Position numbers and translations under genes: made by a program
From: Peptococcaceae bacterium
Lineage (GTDB): Bacteria > Bacillota > DSM-12270 > Thermacetogeniales > Thermacetogeniaceae
Assembly: GCA_023249405.1 (NCBI GenBank)
Contig: JAHFCR010000032.1
Location: 3,342-35,522, forward strand
Reading direction: 5' to 3'
Length of the DNA: 32,181 nt
The notes under the pieces: model-generated
What the model was told of the DNA's origin: nothing
The model's input: the letters and a program-made list of their open reading frames with translations, nothing else
The model's database searches: none
Shown here: piece after piece, positions 19,769 through 28,164 of the stretch
Layout of the letters: every line of letters starts with the position of its first letter
Numbering within the stretch: position 1 is the first letter of the stretch

Positions 19769-20725
19769 CTATGATTCAAAGGAAAATGGGTCAGGCAGGC
19801 GCTTCTGCACTGACCGGGATGAAGCGATCAAATTCTGAAGCTGCGACAGCAGCATGCCGGCGAACATCAGGGCGCACCCCAGGATGCTCCGTAACCCCAG
19901 ACTCTCGTGGAGCAGGATGGTGCCCCCGAGGGCCGCGAACACCGTCTCCATACTCATGATGATCGCCGCCGGGGCCGGCTGGGCATGCTTCTGGCCGAAG
20001 ATCTGCAGGGTGTAGGCCACGCCGACCGACAACAGCCCGCTATAGAGAATGGGGATGCCCGCCTGCCGGAGACCGGCCGCGGTGATCGGCTCCCAGATCA
20101 GGGCCACCCCCAGGCTGAGCGCTCCGCAGACGGCAAACTGGGTGCAGGCCAGTTTCAGGGTGTCCACCTTTCGGGTGAAGTGATCGATCACCAGGATGTG
20201 CGCCGCCCAGAAAAATGCCCCCACCAGTTCGAGCAGATCCCCGTAAGACATGGCAAAGCCCTGCTTGATGCTTAAAAAATATAACCCTGCCAGGGCGATG
20301 ACGGCGCCCAGCCAATTGCCGAGGCTGATGTACTTTTTGAGGAATATCCCCAGGATCGGCACCAGCACTATGTACAGTCCGGTGATGAAGGCCGCCTTGC
20401 CGACTGTCGTGTCGGCATAGATCAGTCCCACCTGCTGCAGTGATGCGCCGCTAAACAGGATCAGCCCGCAAATCAGGCCGGCCGGCATGACAACGCGGAG
20501 GCTCCCCCGGTCAGACCCACCATCCCGTGATCTGAAAACTGAAGACCTATTGCCAAAGAAGAGGATCAGGGGAAGCAATGACAGGCTGCCCAGAGCAAAC
20601 CTGACACCGTTAAAGGTGAACGGCCCCACGAAAGCGACCCCGACCCGCTGCGCCACGAAGGCAGATCCCCAGATAATGGCAGTCAGCAAAAGCAACAGGT
20701 TAGATTTTAGCGTCTGTGAGTTCAT
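19769..20725 (-). CDS. EamA/DMT-family transporter
   Basis: 318 residues with about ten hydrophobic helices in two homologous EamA halves (about 7-150 and 160-300). 'LLLLTAIIWGSAFVAQRVG' opens the first half and 'AAHILVIDHFTRKVD' the second. The ATG at 20725 follows an AGAGAAGAG ribosome binding site. Such proteins are drug/metabolite exporters or amino-acid exporters; the substrate here is unknown. It lies downstream of the trp operon on the same strand, with a 266-bp gap containing hairpins. An amino-acid export role is possible but only a guess. The C-terminus (about residue 300 on) is hydrophilic. Confidence 0.9.
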   Translation of the reverse strand: MNSQTLKSNLLLLLTAIIWGSAFVAQRVGVAFVGPFTFNGVRFALGSLSLLPLILFFGNRSSVFRSRDGGSDRGSLRVVMPAGLICGLILFSGASLQQVGLIYADTTVGKAAFITGLYIVLVPILGIFLKKYISLGNWLGAVIALAGLYFLSIKQGFAMSYGDLLELVGAFFWAAHILVIDHFTRKVDTLKLACTQFAVCGALSLGVALIWEPITAAGLRQAGIPILYSGLLSVGVAYTLQIFGQKHAQPAPAAIIMSMETVFAALGGTILLHESLGLRSILGCALMFAGMLLSQLQNLIASSRSVQKRLPDPFSFES

Positions 20726-20991: not shown

Positions 20992-21843
20992 TTAGTCCAC
21001 CCGGCTGATCGCCTGCTTCAGGCTGCCGACTAGGGCGGCGACCCGTTCCAGCATCTGTTCCCGGTCTGCGGCATACTGCTCGACCAGGCTGACAATGGCG
21101 CTGCCCACGATCACGGCATCTCCCAGCTGCGCCATCAAGGCTGCCTGCCCCGGACTGGAGATACCGAAGCCGATCGCCAGCGGCTGGGTGGTGCAGGCCC
21201 GTGCCCGTTCCATGAACTCCTCGATGCCGGGGGGAAGCCCTTCCCGGGCACCGGTGACGCCGGTCAGAGAGACACAGTAGACAAACCCCCCGGCCAGGCG
21301 CCCGATCCGGTCCAGGCGCTGAGGGGTGCTGGTGGGCGCGGCGAAGGGGATGAGATGTACATGGCAGGGGTGCATTTCCGCCAGCAGCGGAGCGCTCTCC
21401 TCCACCGGCAGATCCGGGATGATCAGCCCGTCCACACCCGCGGCGGCAGCTGCAGCTGCAAAGGAGGCCAGTCCATAATGGAGCACGGGATTATAATAGG
21501 TCATCAACAGCAGTGGAACGGAGGTCCTTTCCCGCAGACTTCGCACCAGCCCGAGGATTCCGGCCAGAGTCGTTCCGCCGGCCAGGGAACGCAACGAGGC
21601 GCGCTGGATCACCGGGCCGTCGGCCATCGGATCGGAGAAGGGCACGCCCAGTTCGATCAGGTCGGCCCCGGCCCGCTCCATGGCCAGCACCAGTTCGGCG
21701 GTGGTATCGTAGCCGGGGTCGCCGGCAGTGATGTAAGCGATCAGGCCCTTGCGGCCACCCCGCCGCAGCCGGTCGAAGACAACATCGATCCGGTTGCATC
21801 CGGCGCTGTCCACCGGTGTCATGCCAGGTTCAGCTGGCAACAT
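20992..21843 (-). CDS. trpA: Tryptophan synthase alpha chain
   Basis: 283 residues. It cleaves indole-3-glycerol phosphate to indole and glyceraldehyde-3-phosphate, and channels indole to TrpB. A TIM barrel; the catalytic Glu lies in 'LIELGVPFSDPMADGP' (near residue 59) and the catalytic Asp in 'YITAGDPGYD' (near residue 70 by family alignment). The phosphate-binding 'GFGISSP' and 'VGSAIV' loops are present. The ATG directly follows the trpB stop (TAG-ATG), with GGGGGTG 6 nt upstream inside trpB. A second in-frame ATG seven codons on is less likely. It ends in 'RVD' and is the last gene of the operon. Confidence 0.97.
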   Translation of the reverse strand: MLPAEPGMTPVDSAGCNRIDVVFDRLRRGGRKGLIAYITAGDPGYDTTAELVLAMERAGADLIELGVPFSDPMADGPVIQRASLRSLAGGTTLAGILGLVRSLRERTSVPLLLMTYYNPVLHYGLASFAAAAAAAGVDGLIIPDLPVEESAPLLAEMHPCHVHLIPFAAPTSTPQRLDRIGRLAGGFVYCVSLTGVTGAREGLPPGIEEFMERARACTTQPLAIGFGISSPGQAALMAQLGDAVIVGSAIVSLVEQYAADREQMLERVAALVGSLKQAISRVD

Positions 21844-23046
21844 CTATTTCACCCCCAGGATTTGCGTAATGGCAGGAACATCCTTGTCGCCCCGTCCGGA
21901 GATGTTGATGATCATGATCTGATCACTGTCCATCCCGGGCACCAGCTTGACGGCGTAGGCCACGGCATGGGCGCTCTCCAGGGCCGGCAGGATCCCCTCG
22001 GTCCGGGACAGCAGTTGAAAGGCCTCCAAGGCCTCACTGTCTGTGACCGCCACGTACTCGGCGCGCCCGGAATCCTTGAGGTAACTGTGCTCAGGCCCCA
22101 CCCCCGGGTAGTCCAGGCCGGCGGAGATGGAATAGGCCTCCACCACCTGCCCGTGCGGGTCCTGCAGCAGGTAGCTGAGAGCGCCGTGCAGCACCCCGAC
22201 CTGGCCGGCGGTCAGGGTGGCAGCGTGCTGGCCGGTAGCAATCCCCTGCCCCGCCGCCTCCACCCCGATCAGGCGCACCGGGTCATCCAGGAAGGGGTGG
22301 AAGATCCCCATGGAGTTACTGCCACCGCCCACACAGGCCACGATGCAATCCGGCAGCCGCCCTTCCTGCTCCAGCAACTGCGCCCGGGCCTCCACCCCGA
22401 TCACCGACTGGAAGTCCCGCACCATCATCGGGTAGGGGTGCGGCCCGCCGACGGTCCCCAGCAGGTAATAGGTGTTCCGGACGTTGGTCACCCAGTCGCG
22501 CATCGCCTCGTTCATGGCATCCTTCAGTGTCCGGTTGCCGCTGGTCACGGGTACCACCTCGGCTCCCAGCAGCCGCATCCGGAAGACGTTCAGCTCCTGG
22601 CGCCTGATGTCCTCTTCACCCATGAAGACAGCGCACTCCATATCGAACATGGCCGCCGTAGTGGCAGCAGCCACCCCGTGCTGGCCGGCGCCGGTCTCGG
22701 CGATCACCCGCCGCTTGCCCATCCGTTTGGCCAGCAGCGCCTGGCCCAGGGTGTTGTTGATCTTGTGCGCCCCGGTATGGTTGAGGTCCTCCCGCTTCAG
22801 ATAGATGCGGGCGCCCCCCAGGCGCCTGGTCAACCGCTCGGCAAAATAGAGCGGGCTGGGACGTCCCACATAATGTTTCAGGTAATAGCGGAACTCCTCG
22901 TCAAAGGCCGGATCCTGCCGGGCCTCTGAATAAGCCCTGGTCAGTTCATCCAGAGCCGGCATCAGCGTCTCCGGAACGAACTGCCCGCCGAAGGCGCCGA
23001 AGTGGCCGCCTGCATCAGGTAGTTCAATCTTAGTAGTCAAGCTCAT
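21844..23046 (-). CDS. trpB: Tryptophan synthase beta chain
   Basis: 400 residues, the usual TrpB1 length. It condenses indole with serine to tryptophan using pyridoxal phosphate. The PLP-binding lysine is in 'HTGAHKINN', the cofactor phosphate loop is 'GGGSNSMG', and '[14 protein letters not shown]' opens the protein as expected. '[10 protein letters not shown]' (catalytic Glu) is intact. The start overlaps the end of trpF by 17 nt and the stop abuts trpA, so translation is likely coupled, matching the alpha2-beta2 complex. Confidence 0.98.
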
Positions 23047-23653
23047 GATTCAACCTCCTCACCGTCCTGAGCAACGCTGCGATCTTGACCGGGTCCTTGA
23101 CGCCGCCGGTCTCCACCCCGCTGCTTACGTCGATGGCATATGGCCTGGCCTGGGAGACCGCCTGCTCCACGTTGTCCGGGGTGATCCCTCCGGCCAGGAT
23201 GATGTAATGCCCTGATCCGGCCTGACGGGCCAGCTCCCAGTTGAAGCTCTGTCCGGTGCCCCCCGCCTGGCCGGGTACGTAAGCATCCAGCAGGCAGGCA
23301 GCCACGTCATATCTGGCCACCTGTTCCAGCACCGAATTGTCACGCACCCGGAATCCCTTGACCACCGGCAGCCGCCAGCCCCGGCAGTAGGCCGGGGGTT
23401 CCTCCCCGTGAAACTGCAGCAGGCCCAGCCGGCAGGTCTCGGCTATCTCCTGCGCCTGCTGGCGGGGGGCGTCCACAAACACTCCCACCGTGCTGATGAA
23501 AGGAGGCAGGCGTTCGATGATCCGTGCGGCCTCCCCGGGCTCTATCCGCCGCGGGCTGGGAGCGAAGACGAAGCCCAGGGCGTCGGCGCCGGCATCCACC
23601 GCTGCCAGGGCGGCCTCCAATGTCCTGATCCCGCAGATCTTAACCCGCACCAT
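23030..23653 (-). CDS. trpF: Phosphoribosylanthranilate isomerase
   Basis: 207 residues from ATG 23653. This start gives the canonical '[11 protein letters not shown]' with the general-base Cys; an upstream in-frame ATG lies deep within trpC and is rejected. It converts phosphoribosylanthranilate to CdRP, the third step of tryptophan synthesis. The general-acid Asp is in 'IDVSSGVE', and phosphate loops 'LAGGI' and 'SSGVETGG' are present. The start overlaps the trpC stop by 14 nt and the stop overlaps trpB by 17 nt. Confidence 0.97.
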
Positions 23654-24500
23654 CGGCAGCAGCCCCCTCCAGCAGCATCCGGACCGCCCCTGCCAGATCA
23701 TCCTGCTCCATCAGGGCCTCCCCGACCAGCACGGCGTCCACCCCGGCCTCTCCCAGGCGCAGCACCTGCTCAGGGGTGCGGATGCCGCTCTCGCTCACCA
23801 CCGTCACGCCTGGCGGGATCAGAGGCAACAGATTGAATGTTGTCTCCAGATCAGTCTTGAAGCTGTGCAGATCCCGGTTGTTGATCCCTATCAGCCGCCC
23901 TCCGGCCGCCGCAGCCAGGATCGCCTCGGAGGCGCTGTGCACCTCGACCAGGGCCGTCAGGCCCAGATCGGCTGCCAGTCCCAGGTAATCCTCAAGTTGG
24001 CTGGGGGCCAGGATGGCGGCGATCAACAGCACCGCGTCCGCCCCCAGAGCGCGGGATTCGAAGATCTGGTAATCGCTGATGATAAAGTCCTTGCGCAGCA
24101 GCGGCAGCCCGGCCGCCTCCCGGGCCATGGCCAGGTAGTCCGCATGCCCCTGGAAGAAGGCCTCGTCGGTGAGGACGGAGAGCGCCCGCGCCCCACCCAG
24201 TTCGTAGGCCCCGGCAATGGCCGCCGGGTCGAAATCCTGACGGATCACTCCCCGGGACGGTGAGGCCTTCTTGATCTCGGCGATCAGCTTGACGGGAGCG
24301 GTGGCCGCCGATGGCCGCCTCATCCCTGATCTCTCCGGGGCGAGGCGATCAACTCCCCTCTCCTCCCGTTTAACGGCGGCGTGAAAATCCCGTGCCGGCG
24401 GGGCATCCTTTGCCTGGAGCCTCAGATCCCTGGCAGGCCTGCAGGAACGCCGGTACTCGACCTCATCCCGTTTCACCGGCAGAATACGATCTAAAAACAT
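23640..24500 (-). CDS. trpC: Indole-3-glycerol phosphate synthase
   Basis: 286 residues, slightly longer than the roughly 260 usual. The extra length is a polar, Arg-rich insertion at about residues 45-68, between the N-terminal helices and the barrel. Catalytic 'IAEIKKASPSRG' (Lys), 'LLRKDFIISDYQI' (Lys), 'GINNRDL' and 'SESGI' are all present. It closes the indole ring from CdRP. It starts 12 nt after the trpD stop and overlaps trpF at its end. Confidence 0.97.
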   Translation of the reverse strand: MFLDRILPVKRDEVEYRRSCRPARDLRLQAKDAPPARDFHAAVKREERGVDRLAPERSGMRRPSAATAPVKLIAEIKKASPSRGVIRQDFDPAAIAGAYELGGARALSVLTDEAFFQGHADYLAMAREAAGLPLLRKDFIISDYQIFESRALGADAVLLIAAILAPSQLEDYLGLAADLGLTALVEVHSASEAILAAAAGGRLIGINNRDLHSFKTDLETTFNLLPLIPPGVTVVSESGIRTPEQVLRLGEAGVDAVLVGEALMEQDDLAGAVRMLLEGAAADGAG

Positions 24501-24512
24501 GCTCCCACTCCC

Positions 24513-25544
24513 TCAAGCACATTGGCTGGTAAAGGATACCAGTCTCTCCAGCTTGGCCATAGCCGCCCCCGAATCGATGATCTCCGCCGCCAACTGCACA
24601 CCGTCCCGGATGGTGTCCACCTTTCCACCGACTACCAGGGCCGCGGCGGCGTTCATCAGCACCACGTCCCGACAGGGGCCCGGGACACCGTTCAGCACGT
24701 CGCGGGTGATCCGGGCATTCGCCTCGGCATCGCCACCCAGGATCTCCTCCAGGCATCCCTGTCTGAGACCGAGGTCTGACGGCTCCAGGTAATAGGTCTT
24801 GATCTGGTCTCCATTCAACTCGCTGATCCGGGTCTGGCCGGTGTGGGTGATCTCGTCCAGGCCGTCACTGCCATGCACGATCATTGCCCTGCAAGCGCCA
24901 AGTTTTCGCAGAACGCAGGCGATCACCCCGGTGAGGTTGGGGTCGTAAACACCCAGCAATTGGATCTGGGCTCCCGCCGGGTTGGTAAGAGGCCCTAGCA
25001 GATTGAAGACGGTGCGAATACCGATCTCCCGCCGGGGGCCGACGGCGTGCTTCATGGCGGCATGGAACACCGGGGCAAACAGGAAGCCGATCCCGGTCTC
25101 CTCCAGGCAGCGCTCCACCTCTGCAGGGGTTACTGCCACGTTGACCCCCAGGGCTTCCAGTACGTCAGCGCTGCCGCAGCGGCTGGAAACCGAGCGATTG
25201 CCGTGCTTGGCCACCGCCAGACCGGCTCCGGCCACCACGAAGGCCGCGGTGGTAGAGATGTTGAAGGTAAACCGCTGATCGCCGCCGGTGCCGCAGGTAT
25301 CCACCATCTGGTGACAGCGTGGGGCGATCCGGCTCACCTTCGCCCGCATCGCCCGGGCAAAGCCGGCGATCTCCTCCACCGTCTCCCCCTTCAGCCGCAG
25401 GGCGGTGATCAGGGCAGCGATCTGTGCCGGGGTTGCCTCGCCTTCCATAATCTGCCCCATGGCCTCTTCGGCCTCCACCTCCGATAGCGGGTAATGATTG
25501 ACCACTTTCTCGATGGTCTGTTTCATGCAAGTTTCTGTCCCCAT
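24513..25544 (-). CDS. trpD: Anthranilate phosphoribosyltransferase
   Basis: 343 residues; ATG 25544 with AGGGGGAG 5 nt upstream (an ATG six codons later has no such site). It joins anthranilate to PRPP. The PRPP-binding glycine-rich loop 'DTCGTGGDQ', 'KHGNRSVSSRCGSADVLEALG', and 'GPLTNPAGA' are intact. It is a stand-alone TrpD with no fused glutamine amidotransferase. A 93-bp gap separates it from trpE, where many operons carry trpG. The gap holds only short direct repeats (AAGTACGTC twice) and no coding remnant I can recognise. Confidence 0.97.
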   Translation of the reverse strand: MGTETCMKQTIEKVVNHYPLSEVEAEEAMGQIMEGEATPAQIAALITALRLKGETVEEIAGFARAMRAKVSRIAPRCHQMVDTCGTGGDQRFTFNISTTAAFVVAGAGLAVAKHGNRSVSSRCGSADVLEALGVNVAVTPAEVERCLEETGIGFLFAPVFHAAMKHAVGPRREIGIRTVFNLLGPLTNPAGAQIQLLGVYDPNLTGVIACVLRKLGACRAMIVHGSDGLDEITHTGQTRISELNGDQIKTYYLEPSDLGLRQGCLEEILGGDAEANARITRDVLNGVPGPCRDVVLMNAAAALVVGGKVDTIRDGVQLAAEIIDSGAAMAKLERLVSFTSQCA

Positions 25545-25637: not shown

Positions 25638-27203
25638 TTATAGCTCTGCTTTAAATCTTTTTCCGGCATCCTGCCTCTTGCCTCCGACCTCCGAAATGGC
25701 CTGCAACAGCGCCTCGGCCTTGCGCATCGTTTCCTCATACTCCCGCAGCGGATCGGAATCGGCCACGATCCCGGCCCCGGCCTGTACGTAGGCGATTCCA
25801 TCCTTGATCACGATCGTCCTGATGGTGATGCAGGTATCCAGGTTGCCGTTGAAACCCAGGTAGCCGATGGCGCCGCCATAGGGGCCGCGCCTGGTGGCTT
25901 CCAGCGACTCGATGATCTCCATCGCCCGGATCTTGGGCGCCCCGGACAGGGTGCCCGCCGGAAAGCAGGAGGCCAGGGCGTCGTAGGCATCGCGCCCTTC
26001 GGCCAGCCGGCCCTGGACCACGGACACCAGGTGCATCACGTGTGAGTACCGCTCCAATTCCATCAGCCTGGTCACCTTGACGCTCCCATAGGTGCAGACT
26101 CGCCCCAGGTCGTTACGGCCCAGATCGACCAGCATCAGGTGCTCGGCGCATTCCTTGGGGTCAGCCCGCAACTCCTTGGCGAGAGCATCGTCCGCATCCT
26201 GACTGCCGCCTCGCCGCCGGGTGCCGGCGATCGGCCTGGTCTCCGCCGTCCCGTTCTCCACGCGCACCAGCATCTCCGGCGAGGAACCGACGATCTGTAA
26301 CTCCCCGAAGCGCAGGTAGTACATGTAGGGAGATGGATTGAGAGAACGCAGCCGGCGGTACACCTCGAAGGGATCGGCCCCCAGCTCCGCCTGCAACCGC
26401 TGTGACAGCACCACCTGAAAGATATCCCCGGCCTCGATATACTCTTTCGCTCGCCGGACGCTGTCCATGTACTGCTCTTTGCTGACATTCGAGGTAACAC
26501 TGACATCACCCCGGCCAGAGATGGCTCCGGGATCATGCATGAGACCACTGGCCTGTGAACTACTGCCGGGGATAGTCTCGCCGTCCGCTGCCGGAGCCGG
26601 CAGCGGACTCGTAATGCGCCGTCTGACCCGATCGATGGTGGACAGCGCTTCATTATATGCAGTCGCCGGGTCATCCCCCTTGGGAACAAGAGCAACGATC
26701 TTGACGGAATGCCGGACATGATCGTATATGAGCACGACCCTGGTGAGGATGAAGAAACAGTCGGGCAGTTTCAGGTCATCCATGGCAATTTCCGGCAGCC
26801 GCTCATGATGGCGTACCAGATCGTAGCCAAAGTAGCCCACCGCCCCGCCGAAGAAGCGCGGCTCATCCGGCACCGGTCCCACCTGCAGGCTATCCAACAA
26901 CTGGCGCAACCTGGCCAACGGTTCACCATCCTCTAATATTTTCTGACCGCCACGCTCGATAGTGATCTGCCGTCCCTTGGCCTGGTAGATCAGCAGAGGC
27001 TCAAATCCGATAAAGGAGTAGCGGGCCAGTTGCTCACCGCCTTCGACACTCTCCAGCAAGTAAGTGTAGGACCCGGCGGCAGCCTTCATGAAGATGGAGA
27101 TCGGAGTCTCGAGATCTACCACCAGTTCATCCCACACCGGGGTAATCTCGAACCGGTCGTTTTCAGGCTGCTCCAGGTAGTCCTGACGCAAAGGATAGGC
27201 CAT
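25638..27203 (-). CDS. trpE: Anthranilate synthase component I
   Basis: 521 residues. The ATG at 27203 is chosen: GGAGG lies 10 nt upstream, and the protein opens 'MAYPLRQDYLEQ'. An ATG-like frame 12 codons earlier would start inside the terminator hairpin. It converts chorismate to anthranilate with ammonia from TrpG. The Trp feedback site 'YLLESVEG' (L-L-E-S) is present near residue 46, as are 'GTRRRGG', 'VDLGRNDLGRV', 'FPAGTLSGAPKIRAM' and 'GGAIGYLGF'. A low-complexity linker (about 215-245) separates the N-domain from the catalytic core. First gene of the operon, under an attenuator. Confidence 0.97.
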   Translation of the reverse strand: MAYPLRQDYLEQPENDRFEITPVWDELVVDLETPISIFMKAAAGSYTYLLESVEGGEQLARYSFIGFEPLLIYQAKGRQITIERGGQKILEDGEPLARLRQLLDSLQVGPVPDEPRFFGGAVGYFGYDLVRHHERLPEIAMDDLKLPDCFFILTRVVLIYDHVRHSVKIVALVPKGDDPATAYNEALSTIDRVRRRITSPLPAPAADGETIPGSSSQASGLMHDPGAISGRGDVSVTSNVSKEQYMDSVRRAKEYIEAGDIFQVVLSQRLQAELGADPFEVYRRLRSLNPSPYMYYLRFGELQIVGSSPEMLVRVENGTAETRPIAGTRRRGGSQDADDALAKELRADPKECAEHLMLVDLGRNDLGRVCTYGSVKVTRLMELERYSHVMHLVSVVQGRLAEGRDAYDALASCFPAGTLSGAPKIRAMEIIESLEATRRGPYGGAIGYLGFNGNLDTCITIRTIVIKDGIAYVQAGAGIVADSDPLREYEETMRKAEALLQAISEVGGKRQDAGKRFKAEL

Positions 27204-27218
27204 AGCACGCTTCCCTCC

Positions 27219-27252
27219 AATACAAAAGCCAGCACCCAAATGAGTGCTGGCT
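27219..27252 (-). terminator. trp operon attenuator terminator
   Basis: On the minus strand AGCCAGCAC (27252-27244) pairs perfectly with GTGCTGGCT (27235-27227) over an 8-nt loop, then TTTGTATT. It lies just before the trpE ribosome binding site. A competing antiterminator is possible: ATGAGCTG at the end of the triplet array can pair with CAG-CA-CTCAT in the 5' arm and loop, with a 2-nt bulge. Confidence 0.85.
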
Positions 27253-27276
27253 CGAATGCTCTAACAGCAAATAACC

Positions 27277-27324
27277 CTCAGCTCATCTCAGCTCGTCTCG
27301 GCTCGTCTCGGCTCGTCTATGCTC
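27277..27324 (-). promoter_or_regulatory. TRAP (MtrB) binding site: ten (G/U)AG triplets
   Basis: The minus strand has ten triplets, nine GAG and one TAG (the second), each separated by exactly 2 nt over 48 bases. TRAP is an 11-subunit ring that binds 9-11 (G/U)AG triplets spaced 2-3 nt in the trp leader when tryptophan is plentiful, freeing the terminator. The array starts about 50 nt after the predicted transcription start and ends 24 nt before the terminator stem. More GAG/TAG triplets lie upstream (about 27340-27372). Confidence 0.85.
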
Positions 27325-27381
27325 ATATTGCTATGCAGTTGTCACAATCTCTTCACTCGGCTATGCTCTAAACTCACAAAT

Positions 27382-27411
27382 AGTATACCGGCTGCCGCCT
27401 TGTCCTGTCAA
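27382..27411 (-). promoter_or_regulatory. Sigma-A promoter of the trp operon
   Basis: The minus strand has TTGACA (27411-27406, perfect), an 18-bp spacer, and TATACT (27387-27382). Transcription would start near 27375 and give a leader of about 170 nt containing the triplet array and attenuator. Confidence 0.88.
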
Positions 27412-27503: not shown

Positions 27504-27812
27504 TTATGCGATCTCTATGTTTTGCATACGAAAGAGCCTTGCTGCATTAAAAACTTGCAGAATGTATACTTTCTCCTTACGAACCGTATAAACCAAGCAA
27601 TAATTTTTATGGATAATTTCCCGGATCTGGGGCTGTCCTATTTCCGGTACGACCCTGCCCATCTCCGGAAAATCCAGTATGCTCCTGCATACTTCGAGAA
27701 GTTCATCCGCAAAACGGATCGCGCTCTCTATGCCATCCCTGGCTATATATCCCGTTATCTCCTCGATGTCTAAAGCAGCTTGTTTAGTAAGAATAAAAGT
27801 TCTCTTAGACAT
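27504..27812 (-). CDS. ParE/RelE-family toxin
   Basis: 102 residues. The fold pattern of the RelE/ParE superfamily is clear: 'LTKQAALDIEEITGYI' helices, 'PEMGRVVPE', 'REIIHKNYCLVYTV' beta strands and a C-terminal 'VFNAARLF'. ParE members poison gyrase and RelE members cut mRNA; sequence alone does not decide, but the helical 'DIEEITGYIARDG' start favours ParE. It starts 3 nt after the antitoxin stop with only a weak ribosome binding site, suggesting coupled translation. Base composition is clearly AT-richer than the flanking trp and dusB genes, consistent with horizontal acquisition. Confidence 0.88.
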   Translation of the reverse strand: MSKRTFILTKQAALDIEEITGYIARDGIESAIRFADELLEVCRSILDFPEMGRVVPEIGQPQIREIIHKNYCLVYTVRKEKVYILQVFNAARLFRMQNIEIA

Positions 27813-27815
27813 TTG

Positions 27816-28103
27816 CTATTTACCATCTAATATCTTACTTTTCAATCCCTGAAAAAAATCTTCCCCATCCACCACCTGATCAGACTCTACATCCCGTAAT
27901 CCTGACACAAGCCCCTTCATAAAACATAACTCTTCCAGCTTTCGCTGGTATTCTTCTACAGATTCAAGCACGGCTGCCGGCCGGCCATGCTGCGTTAAAA
28001 TAATCGTCCGACGGTTTTTCTTTAAGCTTTCAAGAATTTCAGAGGTATTGGCGCGGAATTCGGTAACAGGTTGAATATCAGTAGTCAAATCCAGGTTTTC
28101 CAT
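27816..28103 (-). CDS. Phd/YefM-family antitoxin
   Basis: 95 residues from ATG 28103, with AGGAGG 7 nt upstream (an in-frame ATG at 28133 lies 5' of that site). The N-terminal DNA-binding Phd/YefM fold is visible: 'PVTEFRANTSEILESL', then 'ILTQHGRPAAVLESVEEYQ'. The C-terminal acidic tail (about 60-95, 'DVESDQVVDGEDFF') is the usual toxin-binding part. It neutralises the toxin encoded 3 nt downstream and should repress its own promoter, where a palindrome overlaps the -10 box. Confidence 0.9.
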   Translation of the reverse strand: MENLDLTTDIQPVTEFRANTSEILESLKKNRRTIILTQHGRPAAVLESVEEYQRKLEELCFMKGLVSGLRDVESDQVVDGEDFFQGLKSKILDGK

Positions 28104-28118
28104 ATTATTGCCTCCTAA

Positions 28119-28164
28119 AAAGTCTTTATACATTAATTATAAAAGACTTTAAAAAGACCTGCAA
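28119..28164 (-). promoter_or_regulatory. Promoter and operator of the toxin-antitoxin pair
   Basis: Minus strand: -35 TTGCAG (28164-28159), 17-bp spacer, -10 TATAAT (28141-28136, perfect). An inverted repeat, AAAGTCTTTTATA (28150-28138) and TATAAAGACTTT (28130-28119), flanks a 7-nt centre and overlaps the -10, fitting antitoxin autorepression. Confidence 0.75.

Follow-up and report, generated by a model that had tools for sequence, protein, structure and literature searches.

A predicted TRAP attenuator ahead of the trp operon of a Peptococcaceae bacterium, and related triplet arrays in its phylum

The leader of the trpEDCFBA operon in this Peptococcaceae bacterium is very probably a TRAP-dependent transcription attenuator. 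Five observations carry this reading: the sequence anatomy of the leader, the presence of MtrB in the genome, the genome-wide specificity of the triplet array, its co-occurrence with mtrB in other genomes, and the co-variation of the antiterminator strands. The window referred to throughout is the whole stretch of DNA analysed, 32,181 nt long, from a genome of 3.57 Mb that is 99% complete.

Anatomy of the trp leader and its ring protein

All leader elements and trp genes are read on the minus strand of the window. By consensus match, a -35 element, TTGACA (27406–27411), and a -10 element, TATACT (27382–27387), separated by an 18-nt spacer, form a near-consensus, promoter-like pair, from whose predicted start the leader extends for about 150 nt to a T-tract. 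Between this pair and trpE, just as the original prediction had it, lie ten (G/U)AG triplets, nine GAG and one UAG, with spacers of exactly 2 nt (27277–27324), and these make up the predicted TRAP binding site. In 200 dinucleotide-preserving shuffles of the window, no run on either strand was longer than four strict triplets (a length reached in 9 of the 200), against the ten observed. A UAG located 6 nt upstream of the strict array (27331–27333) is a candidate eleventh triplet, and the same-genus leader L158 has identical spacing between UAG and array. Ten strict triplets and one spaced triplet correspond to what is expected of a TRAP-dependent trp attenuator (about 7–11 triplets with 2–3-nt spacers), and seven or more triplets are enough for stable TRAP binding (PMC4027176).

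The array is followed, after 25 nt, by an intrinsic terminator (27224–27251; sequence and fold), whose hairpin GCCAGCACTC-ATTT-GGGTGCTGGC (27251–27228) precedes TTTT, and which occupies the place of an attenuator's terminator, between the array and the first gene. A hairpin had been predicted here with a stem of 9 bp; the stem has 10 bp, including one G-U pair, and a 4-nt loop. The Shine-Dalgarno sequence of trpE, GGAGGG (27213–27218), and its ATG (27203–27201) come next. This layout bears on whether TRAP might act mainly on trpE translation and not on termination, a second mode known from B. subtilis, where TRAP also represses trpE translation (PMC13170310). An array overlapping a start is indeed present in this genome, at trpB2, but the array considered here stops 58 nt before the trpE Shine-Dalgarno sequence, with the terminator in between, and both the terminator and a co-varying antiterminator recur in relatives. 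Translation as the main point of control at trpE is therefore very improbable, and transcription attenuation is the reading that we prefer.

Downstream of the leader, Pfam matches give the operon order trpEDCFBA without trpG: trpE (25638–27203; anthranilate synthase component I, 521 aa from the ATG; PF00425, PF04715), trpD (24513–25544; PF00591/PF02885), trpC (23640–24500; PF00218), trpF (23030–23701; PF00697), trpB (21844–23046; PF00291, and its position between trpF and trpA) and trpA (20992–21843; PF00290). This order without trpG, and MtrB supplied in trans, are shared with the B. subtilis trp system, as are some 11 (G/U)AG triplets and competition between antiterminator and terminator (PMC4027176, PMC13170310); the triplets here differ in being mostly GAG and in having exact 2-nt spacers. 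As to the surroundings, a ParE-like toxin and Phd/YefM-like antitoxin pair (27504–28133, minus strand) lies directly upstream of the trp promoter. An EamA-family transporter gene (19769–20725, minus strand) lies 3' of trpA, beyond a 266-nt gap with a hairpin-like stretch; it possibly encodes an exporter and is a candidate member of the operon. Among the matches listed for TrpE, most of the best named relatives are Desulfobacterota-type MAGs with an identity of about 50%.

The original prediction had named the absence of mtrB as grounds for its own refutation. The genome contains one mtrB gene (G000:C63:3347-3547), encoding a protein of 76 aa that matches the family (PF02081) with an E-value of 5.3e-35 and a score of 121 bits (cut-off 21.3), and that aligns to solved TRAP chains at 2e-23. 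Glu36, Lys37, Asp39, Glu42, Lys56 and Arg58, which are RNA contacts or their partners in TRAP crystal structures (PMC4854314), have identical counterparts in E37, K38, D40, E43, K57 and R59. In TRAP, Phe32 stacks against the third triplet base (PMC4854314); this MtrB has Leu there, as do the MtrB proteins of both same-genus relatives and of a second genus in the family, while the position of His33 is Ser in this genome and Ser or Thr across the genus (L001 1489–1719, minus strand; L301; L302). As judged from sequence, PF02081 membership is not in doubt despite the one changed contact residue, Phe32 to Leu, because the family score lies far above the cut-off. In the other genus with the same Leu (G006, G011; L042, L045), a strict six-triplet array was not found. 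The original prediction had also suggested looking for Anti-TRAP (rtpA, PF15777), and here the genome differs from B. subtilis: a search of it returned a single weak match below the cut-off, the zinc finger of DnaJ, and no Anti-TRAP.

In many Clostridia the trp genes are instead controlled by T-box leaders, which resemble the attenuator in sensing tryptophan status by transcription attenuation and differ in doing so through an RNA aptamer that binds uncharged tRNA. The genome does use such elements, with 11 matches to RF00230 before aminoacyl-tRNA synthetases, ilvB, cysE, a second DAHP synthase and others. If a T-box controlled the trp operon, the triplets would be incidental; however, the window as a whole gives no match to any Rfam family, so that the trp leader has no T-box (RF00230) and no such aptamer, the leader is short, the array is far beyond chance and mtrB is present, which leaves this alternative scarcely credible. 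The original prediction had described TRAP control as best known in Bacillus and T-box control of trp as more usual in Clostridia; TRAP control looks common, not rare, in the phylum. Separately, a T-box-like element upstream of the second DAHP synthase gene (G000:C47, L201) scores below the gathering threshold.

Antiterminator and proposed switch

For attenuation the last triplets had been predicted to pair with the 5' part of the terminator, giving a mutually exclusive antiterminator. In the leader, ATGAGCTG (27286–27279), within the last triplets, is able to pair with CAGCACTCAT (27249–27240), which comprises the terminator 5' arm plus the loop, and with neighbouring pairs the duplex reaches -13.2 kcal/mol. 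Across 39 leaders with both an array and a terminator, the last triplets (with the linker) pair with their own terminator 5' arm and loop at a mean of -13.0 kcal/mol, compared with -11.2 ± 0.35 kcal/mol when partners are swapped among leaders; none of 5000 permutations was as good as the own partners, although the set includes related leaders and shared ancestry of both halves could explain part of this difference. More telling than the permutation result is that the terminator loop follows the triplet, since the terminator itself has no need of the loop sequence: AUGAG is found with CUCAU in most leaders and CUGAG with CUCAG in L183 and L299/L300, and these carriers of the CTCAT to CTCAG change come from different families. 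The predicted antiterminator is accordingly supported by co-variation of the last triplets with the terminator arm over the 39 leaders. A different pairing, in which the flanks of the array would close it as a loop, was considered and rejected (own flanks -8.05, permuted -7.85 ± 0.23 kcal/mol; 365 of 2000 permutations as good).

The arrangement differs from that of B. subtilis in the overlap between the two structures: here roughly 10 nt of terminator arm and loop pair directly with the last triplets, whereas in B. subtilis the antiterminator (+60 to +111) shares only 4 nt with the terminator (+108 to +133) (PMC4027176). When the leader is folded with the array masked or unmasked, as had been suggested, the terminator wins at equilibrium in the complete leader either way, and before the 3' arm is made the antiterminator is populated at only 0.30–0.47. 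The switch would therefore have to be kinetic, set by timing during transcription.

That RNA binding depends on tryptophan, that MtrB forms a ring and that regulation runs in the direction given below are assumed by analogy with B. subtilis, and the following sequence of events would then apply. At high tryptophan, a tryptophan-loaded MtrB/TRAP ring would wind the nascent leader round its rim by way of the triplets at 27324–27277, with the UAG at 27333 probably, and the 5' triplet group described below perhaps, also contacting the ring. Bound in this way, the last triplets could not pair with the terminator 5' arm and loop (CAGCACUCAU), the terminator at 27251–27228 would form, and transcription would end ahead of trpE. 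At low tryptophan, the free triplets would pair with the emerging arm (AUGAG:CUCAU), terminator formation would be delayed, and the polymerase would read through.

Triplet arrays in the genome and across the phylum

Runs of six strict triplets are confined to three sites in the genome, each of them at tryptophan or chorismate genes: the trpE leader, the leader of a pabA/trpG-aroF-pabB-pabC operon, and the start of trpB2. The pabA/trpG operon (G000:C24; L012 1486–5540, minus strand; aroF encoding DAHP synthase) has an eight-triplet array with its own terminator, and the same ring would be expected to attenuate it, in contrast to trpG of B. subtilis, where a start-site array serves translational control. 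At trpB2 (G000:C135; L013 4436–4467, plus strand) the six strict triplets overlap the Shine-Dalgarno sequence and the ATG, a geometry suggestive of translational repression in which the ring would block ribosome binding; an array overlapping the trpB2 start is also present in at least nine relatives. This layout resembles the translationally repressed trpG, trpP and ycbK sites of B. subtilis, as do arrays that overlap the trpP start in relatives. The literature examined does not list trpB2 among the targets of TRAP.

A repetitive array might in principle have come about by slippage, as a simple tandem repeat (period 5/10, GAGCCGAGAC) with no binding protein. The trp array is partly near-periodic (GAGCC GAGAC repeated), and microsatellite-like arrays do exist, namely GAGCA repeats in G122 and G402 and TAGCA repeats in G018. 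Against this, the three arrays of the genome have different spacers and all lie at tryptophan genes, among related genomes the spacers vary while (G/U)AG is kept, the trp array is placed between promoter and terminator, and arrays co-occur with mtrB. We consider slippage exceedingly unlikely, and a TRAP binding site the better explanation of the array.

The co-occurrence with mtrB was seen in two samples. Among 61 relatives, 25 of the 26 array-bearing genomes have mtrB. Among 398 genomes of the phylum, 102 of the 200 that have mtrB carry arrays, as against 8 of the 198 that lack it (Fisher p 1.6e-28, a value that treats related genomes as independent and so overstates their independence, while the pattern spans many families), and at least one of the eight array-positive genomes lacking mtrB (G402, with its GAGCA repeats) is a microsatellite case. 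A backward reading of the pattern did not serve as a null for the array search: GAG is identical in both directions, so that the same sites are recovered. The exact six-triplet array is absent from 98 of the 200 mtrB genomes, probably on account of looser spacing. One genome, G039, has two mtrB genes (G039:C7:49982-50182 and G039:C29:85806-86000) and no strict array.

Additional RNA elements and candidate targets

Two further elements lie 5' of the array. The first is a triplet group, GAG-CA-UAG-CC-GAG-UGAA-GAG (27349–27368), which the original prediction had placed at about 27340–27372 and proposed as an additional contact. It is absent from the same-genus leader L158, but similar groups are seen elsewhere: 5' of the main array, 27 of 137 sites bear another strict cluster of three or more triplets, whereas shuffles give 1.8 ± 1.3, and with this statistical enrichment the group is a possible additional TRAP contact. 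The second element, AACTGCATA (27332–27340), matches a box, AAYYRMATA, that was noted on 71 sites, where it precedes the first triplet by a few nucleotides. The box was recorded as a prediction from these sites and then tested on 66 others, a few of which are closely related to discovery sites (e.g. L242 and L176): 17 of the 66 carry it with at most one mismatch, compared with 3.9 ± 1.8 in shuffles and with 4 and 3 in two windows further upstream. Since the box lies at varying distances from the promoter, it is probably not a promoter element.

In relatives, arrays precede trpE, trpD, trpB, trpB2 and trpP (PF17099), and in G005, which belongs to the same family as the genome studied, an array lies before DAHP synthase, followed by trpE. 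Another precedes the gene of a substrate-binding protein resembling TrpX (its best NCBIfam match, at a score just under the cut-off). In three genomes of different families, arrays lie before the alpha subunit of indolepyruvate:ferredoxin oxidoreductase (TIGR03336, above the cut-off), with terminator-like hairpins (L161 996–1090, plus strand, where the gene is iorA; L217 553–648, plus strand; L233, minus strand). A phenylacetate-CoA-ligase-like gene (below the PaaK cut-off) follows close downstream in two of these three genomes, and a further gene of this kind has its own array (L231). An arylacetate-CoA ligase and a reductive indolepyruvate oxidoreductase together would turn indoleacetate into indolepyruvate. 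Plausibly, these arrays mark a salvage route from indoleacetate to tryptophan that is switched off by tryptophan, and since the route would lead to tryptophan, repression by tryptophan would make sense.

In two genomes of 6.6–7.3 Mb (L206 and L207) arrays lie over the start of a methyltransferase-like gene, a family guessed from sequence, with L206 lacking a Pfam match. At L186 (971–1077, plus strand) an array and a terminator precede the gene for a DctP-type solute-binding protein of a tripartite transporter, possibly an importer of an aromatic acid or of tryptophan.

By kind, the trp leader is ordinary TRAP attenuation. Less familiar are the frequency of such sites outside Bacillus, the candidate targets trpB2, DAHP synthase, TrpX-like protein and indolepyruvate:ferredoxin oxidoreductase, and the AAYYRMATA box. 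Work on TRAP has dealt almost exclusively with Bacillus, and a search of the open-access literature, with subscription papers outside its scope, yielded no account of TRAP sites outside that genus. Read jointly, and tentatively, with the balance tipping slightly against the full statement, these observations might mean that TRAP is a major tryptophan regulator in much of the phylum outside Bacillus, with a regulon that goes beyond the biosynthesis and transport genes and is wider than that of B. subtilis by trpB2, DAHP synthase (the first enzyme of the shikimate pathway) and indolepyruvate:ferredoxin oxidoreductase with arylacetate-CoA ligase, and with AAYYRMATA as a second conserved RNA element 5' of the triplets. 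The leader, the ring gene and the co-occurring sites in related anaerobes offer a large natural collection of variants, both of the RNA code and of the ring, among them a ring in which Phe32 is replaced, and they name new candidate TRAP targets, trpB2 and indolepyruvate oxidoreductase among them, whose control by tryptophan is directly testable.
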